DNA of 64,000 nt. Source: an uncultured Pseudomonadota bacterium (GTDB lineage: Bacteria; Pseudomonadota; Alphaproteobacteria; RF32; CAG-239). Both the position numbers and the translations under genes were made by a program. The notes beneath the pieces are model-generated. The model saw only the letters and a list, made by a program, of their open reading frames with translations, did no database searches and had not been told where the DNA came from. Of the stretch, positions 12,514 through 13,198 are shown in pieces; positions within the stretch are counted from its first letter, which is position 1, and the number at the start of each line of letters is the position of its first letter. The stretch spans positions 62,001-126,000 of the forward strand of contig CASFNK010000033.1 in the NCBI GenBank assembly GCA_949295995.1, given 5' to 3'.

Positions 12514-13011
12514 ATGACAGAATACAAATCTCAATCAAATATTCCGGCTGAAGATATTAATAATCTGGAATATTTCAAAAATTTACCCAATCAAAAATAC
12601 TTAAGAACAGCTGAACAAAGCAGCAAAAAATTTCAGTCTTATGATGGTGCAGCCAAACGTGCCATTATGGAAAAAGCCATGCTTCACACCGAAGCCTACA
12701 AATTTTCCCAACGAGGACAATCCGAAACCAAAGATATGTCTGCCGAAGAAAAAGAAGAACGCATGGCTTACATTTTTCAAAAATTTTGCACTTTTTATGC
12801 TTACAGTGATGAATCATTAAAATATCGTCGTGGTATTCGTGATATTATGAATGAACACAAAGCATTTTACAGCACATATACCACAGAGGAATCCAGAGCG
12901 ATTGCCCGTCAAATTAAGGTTCGCAATCTTGCAAACCAAATTGATAAAGGCGATTATCGTGGATATGCCATCACCAGATTTTATAAACAGCATGAAGGTC
13001 AAAGTTTATAA
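12514..13011 (+). CDS. Hypothetical helical cytoplasmic protein
   Basis: The 165-residue product is highly charged and predicted mostly helical, with no signal peptide or membrane helix. I recognise no domain. It contains an acidic stretch (DMSAEEKEERMAYIF) and a basic C-terminal third. An AGGAAAAAAAG leader gives a plausible ribosome site. It is followed by the hairpin-rich element at 13034-13160 and a terminator at 13173, so the transcript may carry that element in its 3' untranslated part. Confidence 0.55.
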   Translation: MTEYKSQSNIPAEDINNLEYFKNLPNQKYLRTAEQSSKKFQSYDGAAKRAIMEKAMLHTEAYKFSQRGQSETKDMSAEEKEERMAYIFQKFCTFYAYSDESLKYRRGIRDIMNEHKAFYSTYTTEESRAIARQIKVRNLANQIDKGDYRGYAITRFYKQHEGQSL

Positions 13012-13033
13012 TTTTCTGATTTGAAATAGATAT

Positions 13034-13160
13034 CCCCCAGTAAACTGGGGGTTCTATAACAGCTACAAACCTAACGGTTTGACCACGCTCGTTGGCGTGG
13101 AGCGGTGTCTATCGACACCTTAGCATTCAGCCCCGAGTAAACTCAAGGTTTTCTGTAAGG
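13034..13160 (+). ncRNA. Five-hairpin structured RNA element, possibly an orphan omega-RNA/HEARO-like RNA
   Basis: Five hairpins follow one another. CCCCCAG/CTGGGGG (13034-13051) and GGTGTC/GACACC (13104-13119) are the most striking. Between them lie CAAACC/GGTTTG (13066-13081) and CCACGC/GCGTGG (13083-13100). A weaker GAG/CTC hairpin sits at 13135-13144. The first and last share the loop context GTAAACT. CCTTA at 13118-13122 can also pair with TAAGG at 13156-13160, closing the last part. The region is far more GC-rich than its surroundings and has no open frame. Such compact arrays occur in guide-RNA scaffolds of IscB/TnpB elements, but no nuclease gene is near. Family assignment is a guess; structure is seen directly. 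Strand is inferred from the following terminator. Confidence 0.5.
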
Positions 13161-13172
13161 CTTGTAATAACA

Positions 13173-13198
13173 AAAAGGGAGTGCTTACTCTCTTTTTT
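13173..13198 (+). terminator. Rho-independent terminator after the structured RNA
   Basis: AAAGGGAGT and ACTCTCTTT pair with one G-T wobble around GCTT, followed by a T run. It follows the structured element by 12 bp, so it would end a transcript covering it. Confidence 0.75.

Follow-up and report, generated by a model that had tools for sequence, protein, structure and literature searches.

Introduction

Target choice by IS200/IS605 transposons is usually described in terms of a 4–5-nt target and of single-stranded DNA (ssDNA) exposed during replication. In IS608 and ISDra2, a Y1 HUH transposase (TnpA) acts on hairpin ends, and 4-nt guides located 5′ of the hairpin foot pair with the target and the cleavage sites (PMC5934647, PMC6006769). 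PATEs, ends-only elements of the IS605 type, are already known from Haloquadratum (PMC3119063) and Halanaerobium (PMC7290912); they have sub-terminal palindromes, lack terminal inverted repeats, cause no target duplication, are too short to encode a transposase, and are related to IS200/IS605. REPINs, which depend on RAYTs, are likewise non-autonomous palindromic repeats tied to Y1 enzymes (PMC3116915), and the omega RNAs of IscB/TnpB elements (HEARO) form a compact, hairpin-rich region beside the right end. The targeting of intrinsic terminators is known from group IIC introns (PMC7923331).

Here, we describe an element found in a 64,000-nt stretch of DNA from an uncultured alphaproteobacterium (the whole stretch analysed is called the window). 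The element shares all the above traits of PATEs and differs from them in its conserved three-hairpin middle, in the occurrence of identical copies across genera, and in the concentration of its insertions at intrinsic terminators. The enzyme type, hairpin ends, and guide arrangement are those of IS608 and ISDra2, whereas the target is TTAT (or GTNT or CTAT) rather than TTAC, TnpB is absent, and there is a terminator preference. Unlike REPINs, the element is associated with the transposase of a mobile IS, and its guides are not GTAG; unlike the omega RNAs, whose hairpin-rich region it resembles, it has no nuclease and no covariance-model match; and unlike group IIC introns, it is not a retroelement that uses RNA and an unrelated enzyme. 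Its membership in the non-autonomous elements of IS200/IS605 (PATE, or MITE-like) is secure. We further consider it highly probable that the locus is a single-strand transposon of this kind, which is moved by the Y1 HUH transposase of a relative and inserts behind terminators.

Structure of the hairpin-rich stretch

The stretch at 13034–13198 had originally been predicted to be an orphan multi-hairpin RNA, possibly an omega RNA or HEARO-like, or alternatively a non-autonomous element, and the second of these readings proved correct. The hairpins are real: the folding energy of the RNA was −62.4 kcal/mol, compared with −40.3 ± 4.1 kcal/mol for shuffled sequences (z = −5.4; 0 of 200 as good), and the opposite strand gave z = −5.2. 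The four perfect stems of the prediction are present (a 7-bp stem with the loop TAAA at 13034–13051, and 6-bp stems at 13066–13081, 13083–13100, and 13104–13119), as are the weaker fifth stem at 13131–13148, which is a decayed copy of CCCCGAGTAAACTCGGGG, the motif AGTAAACT common to the first and last hairpins, and the sequences CCTTA and TAAGG. The elevated GC content (48% in the element vs 36% in the surrounding 1 kb and 39% in the window) and the lack of a transposase or nuclease gene nearby were also borne out. The terminator that was said to follow the hairpins does exist as a terminator-like hairpin at 13172–13198, with T-runs on both strands, but it lies outside the element and constitutes its insertion target. 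The features of the locus are listed below; the top strand of the element corresponds to the minus strand of the window.

13026..13166, minus strand: non-autonomous IS200-type element (PATE), 141 bp, running from TACAAGCC at the left end to ATATCTAT at the right end; its limits follow from 83 copies whose flanks are unrelated and from relatives in which the site is empty
13131..13148, minus strand: left-end hairpin CCTTGAGTTTACTCGGGG, a decayed form of CCCCGAGTTTACTCGGGG; most copies, and the autonomous copy L227, have it intact, with compensatory changes elsewhere
13151..13154, minus strand: guide AGAA of the left end, located 2 nt 5′ of the hairpin foot; 3 of its 4 positions pair with the target TTAT, and its final base changes together with the first base of the target from one element type to another
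13104..13119, minus strand: internal hairpin 1, GGTGTCGATAGACACC; compensatory changes across 56 distinct copies
13083..13100, minus strand: internal hairpin 2, CCACGCCAACGAGCGTGG; compensatory changes, e.g., CCGCAC/GTGCGG
13066..13081, minus strand: internal hairpin 3, CAAACCGTTAGGTTTG; conserved
13034..13051, minus strand: right-end hairpin CCCCCAGTTTACTGGGGG; common to the autonomous Y1 IS copies, with compensatory changes
13054..13057, minus strand: guide ATAG of the right end; its sequence is the complement of CTAT, the right cleavage site, and the arrangement is that of IS608 (PMC5934647)
13026..13029, minus strand: right cleavage site CTAT, the 4 nt with which the element ends; nearly all copies keep it at their right boundary
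13167..13170, minus strand: target and left cleavage site TTAT in the flank, with the insertion directly 3′ of it; from empty sites, and present in nearly all copies
13172..13198, no strand assigned: bidirectional intrinsic terminator of the host beside the insertion; also in G004 and G006, which lack the element, and, like the sites of most copies, of the terminator type
12514..13011, plus strand: host gene of 165 aa with no Pfam match; from the ORF list and Pfam scan

The window copy is a minority case, in that the bidirectional terminator was entered from its other side, so that the element separates the stop codon of the gene at 12514–13011 from the terminator of that gene. Compensatory changes maintain four of the hairpins, namely those at the two ends and internal hairpins 1 and 2, and 14 of the 23 pairs in the RNAalifold structure show changes on both sides; internal hairpin 3 is nearly invariant and for that reason offers no covariation test. 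In one copy (L101:158–307; G164:C11), 8 bp at internal hairpin 1 are duplicated in tandem (AGGTGTTG).

Copies, spread, and empty sites

A second copy in the window's own genome is 90% identical and lies in unrelated surroundings, and relatives of the element were detected in 51 of the 152 genomes of the host's gut alphaproteobacterial family. Each of these genomes has several to many copies, frequently at contig ends, as expected because repeats break assemblies. The element is therefore multicopy. The single-copy status that the original prediction had named as evidence against itself does not apply, and the copies with differing flanks for which it had proposed a search exist. In the alignment of the 83 extracted copies, the element reads TA...CTAT and stands behind TTAT. 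Eighteen of these copies have exactly the same 142-bp sequence; they come from 8 genomes that represent 7 genera, which suggests recent spread.

Empty sites confirmed the boundaries. In G004 and G006, which are empty at the window locus, the T-run of the terminator continues straight into the right flank. At the hisS locus, G073 and G075 are empty (TTTTTTTAT followed directly by TGTTTATTG), and G013 carries the element at that point; in G073 and G075, the two sides lie approximately 2 kb apart, each with its own terminator, which makes this a weaker case than the window locus. At both loci, the insertion follows TTAT with no bases apparently gained or lost, and insertion 3′ of a short target without target duplication is a defining trait of PATEs. 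A search with the recA flank for a further empty site yielded no clean pair. The plasmid search gave no match to the element, and in a phage collection, three short unannotated contigs from human faeces matched, which are likely to be bacterial fragments; neither a TnpA relative nor the end pattern was found in viral contigs.

In G128, in which a pattern search detected 17 right ends, the miniature element also occurs as two copies in tandem (L086; G128:C1:19560–19844). Solitary, nearly perfect 36-bp palindromes, AATAGATATCCCCCAGTAAACTGGGGGATATCTATT, were observed at L045:1191–1226 (G022:C113) and L046:928–960 (G011:C28), and also in G016 and G022:C94. They consist of the right end with the cleavage site mirrored on both sides, and resemble REP singlets or a by-product of transposition.

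The autonomous relative and its guides

Matches to the end hairpins led to a full-length relative, in which a single gene, encoding a 142-aa Y1 transposase (TnpA), is located between the same ends. Its right end, CTATAGAACCCCCAGTTTACTGGGGGATATCTAT, is nearly identical to that of the window element on the minus strand, and its left end has the same layout, with copy L227 equal to the miniature copies from TGCCTTACAG through GAATGC. Sub-terminal hairpins common to the miniature and autonomous elements at both ends are another defining trait of PATEs. The TnpA protein matched PF01797 (Y1_Tnp) with 109 bits and, in the PDB, ISHp608 TnpA and other Y1 transposases; its catalytic residues H61, H63, Y126, and Q130 (HUH, Tyr, and Gln) are invariant. 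The records of TnpA-bearing relatives are mostly from uncultured gut Alphaproteobacteria. In the draft genome to which the window belongs, the cognate TnpA was not found, which leaves the element only putatively mobile there at present.

Other candidate partners were rejected. Partial matches to the query approximately 2 kb from full copies had been taken as parent elements, several of which were merely contig ends. A Y1 transposase in the window's own genome (L042:271–726; G000:C20) is 35% identical to the matching TnpA and has no matching end hairpin in the 2.5 kb around it; it is a second, unrelated IS200-type Y1 transposase, and contigs C2 and C10 carry more Y1 fragments at their ends.

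The guides visible in these elements are of DNA rather than RNA: they are 4 nt long and lie next to the end hairpins. In the miniature copies, AGAA occurs with TTAT in 64 of the 79 copies scored, whereas in the autonomous copies, as read from their sequences, AGAC occurs with GTNT (13 of 14) and AGAG with CTAT (4 of 4), and the final base of each guide thereby pairs with the first base of its target. The pairing of AGAA with TTAT is imperfect, with an internal G facing A, and would need non-canonical contacts, as in IS608. The complementarity of the guides to the target and to the right cleavage site (ATAG/CTAT; AGAA/AGAC/AGAG) is again a trait by which PATEs are recognized. A relative of the transposase in the MAG contig JAIRLR010000178 (L225), labelled Streptococcaceae, lies behind a strong terminator and breaks the guide/target rule; its presence in this contig could reflect horizontal transfer or a binning error.

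Insertion at intrinsic terminators

Sites were scored as terminators when a GC-rich hairpin ended ≤16 nt before the cut. By this rule, 66 of the 83 distinct sites (approximately 80%) had the cut 6–14 nt 3′ of such a hairpin, most at 8–11 nt, and the usual form was the hairpin followed by TTTTTTTAT, with the cut directly after it. Several of the 17 failing sites, including that in the window, can be seen to be terminators whose stems are short or rich in AT. The same rule was passed by 74 of 1268 intergenic TTAT sites (5.8%; Fisher p = 4e-56), 37 of 204 intergenic TTAT sites with a T5 run (18%; p = 1e-22), 67 of 1500 coding TTAT sites, and, on the 3′ side of the insertions themselves, 3 of 82 flanks. 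Even among sites without a T5 run, the hairpin was present in 16 of 23, compared with 37 of 1064 controls (3.5%). Because the proportion among the insertions is so high and those in the controls so low, the element appears to target intrinsic terminators. Among the autonomous copies, 15 of 29 satisfied this rule; the distant CTAT-type relatives (planctomycete, Cysteiniphilum, and Piscirickettsia) all failed it.

The upstream gene is co-directional toward the terminator at 36 of 45 sites and typically ends approximately 50 nt before the cut. The insertions are mostly on the RNA-like strand of this gene, and most copies are located downstream of the terminator, outside the main transcript. In this lineage, TTTTTTTAT is a frequent ending of native terminators, and part of the preference may come from this sequence itself; the spacing between the hairpin and the cut agrees with ordinary T-run length and is not in itself proof of hairpin recognition. 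Terminator targeting by IS200/IS605 elements was not found in the open-access papers searched, and its novelty is provisional.

Alternative explanations

The guide-RNA reading, in which the locus is a stand-alone omega RNA or HEARO-like RNA, or a derivative of a TnpB/IscB transposon with its flank as the guide, is largely refuted, and we now give it almost no credence. The compact multi-hairpin structure does end in the right-end hairpin, as in TnpB elements, which belong to the same transposon family. However, no Rfam family, HEARO (RF02033) included, matched at gathering or permissive thresholds (E<5), among 136 genomes from the family, neither the TnpB zinc-ribbon (PF07282) nor the IscB RRXRR domain (PF14239) exceeded the curated Pfam cut-off, the parent element carries TnpA alone, and the wobble pairs show no strand bias. 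In the internal stems, G.T pairs on the top strand and their mirror, A.C, are about equally frequent (27 vs 21), a balance that DNA palindromes explain no less well than RNA does. Since no RNA strand stands out, the same counts speak against a functional small RNA or 3′-UTR stabilizer formed by the internal three-hairpin cassette and carried by the element. Such a role is improbable, even though compensatory changes preserve the pairing of internal hairpins 1 and 2 and the position of the window element between a stop codon and a terminator means that it is probably transcribed: most copies lie beyond the main transcript, and a separate copy of the cassette was not seen in the searches made.

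A REP/REPIN-type repeat mobilized by a domesticated RAYT (TnpA-REP) would also be short, palindromic, intergenic, multicopy, and dependent on a Y1 enzyme, and solitary right-end palindromes do occur. We nevertheless hold this origin to be very improbable, as the related enzyme is encoded by a mobile IS that is itself multicopy and has the same ends, the guide GT[AG]G is absent, the guides being AGAA and ATAG, and the asymmetric ends carry IS608-type guides. More weight attaches to the possibility that the association with terminators reflects survival alone, harmful insertions having been lost, or that a long T-rich target, TTTTTTAT, suffices without a hairpin. A coding density of approximately 90% and the frequent TTTTTTTAT endings of native terminators are in keeping with these explanations, which still seem unlikely to us: the hairpin is one-sided (66/83 vs 3/82 on the 3′ side), it accompanies only 18% of the T5-containing intergenic TTAT sites, and insertion sites that lack a T5 run retain it (16/23 vs 3.5%).

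Proposed mechanism and implications

The ends, the target, the lack of duplication, the matching autonomous element, the guide/target covariation, the multicopy spread, and the terminator enrichment, all read from sequences, point to the following route for a non-autonomous single-strand transposon. The element consists of two end hairpins, the cleavage sites, and the DNA guides, and where the autonomous relative has its transposase gene, it has the three-hairpin cassette. We infer that it is mobilized in trans in the living cell: the Y1 HUH transposase of the full-length relative would cut the minus (top) strand after TTAT and after CTAT, the element would be excised as an ssDNA circle, as in IS608, and the circle would be pasted 3′ of a new TTAT without target duplication. 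The cassette may serve to keep this circle compact.

How and why terminators are recognized can be inferred from a likeness between the two structures. The element's own right end consists of a hairpin, ATAT, and CTAT, with the cut after these 8 nt, and a terminator in ssDNA consists of a hairpin, 8–11 nt, and TTAT, with the cut after it. The folded terminator would thus resemble the right end and could be captured by the transposase as a pseudo right end, which is the most likely cause of the preference. The capture would perhaps take place on the lagging-strand template, which is the RNA-like strand for co-directional genes; exposure of the non-template strand at a paused polymerase is an alternative, which would fit poorly with antisense-side copies such as that in the window. 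We tentatively propose, as a possibility somewhat short of probable, that this IS200-type system reads folded terminators as pseudo right ends, so that insertion is directed by structure to a harmless site, in convergence with group IIC introns. The insertion site is also a safe haven, because both the terminator and the gene stay intact.

As a caution, an intergenic stretch that is dense in hairpins and has been flagged as a novel ncRNA can turn out to be a single-strand transposon. If the hairpin is indeed recognized, DNA structure would become part of what the simplest transposases read in a target, and the combination of a DNA guide with a hairpin would suggest a way to insertion that is both safe and programmable. 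For the bacteria themselves, insertion at terminators explains how a non-coding element can spread through tiny genomes without damage to genes.
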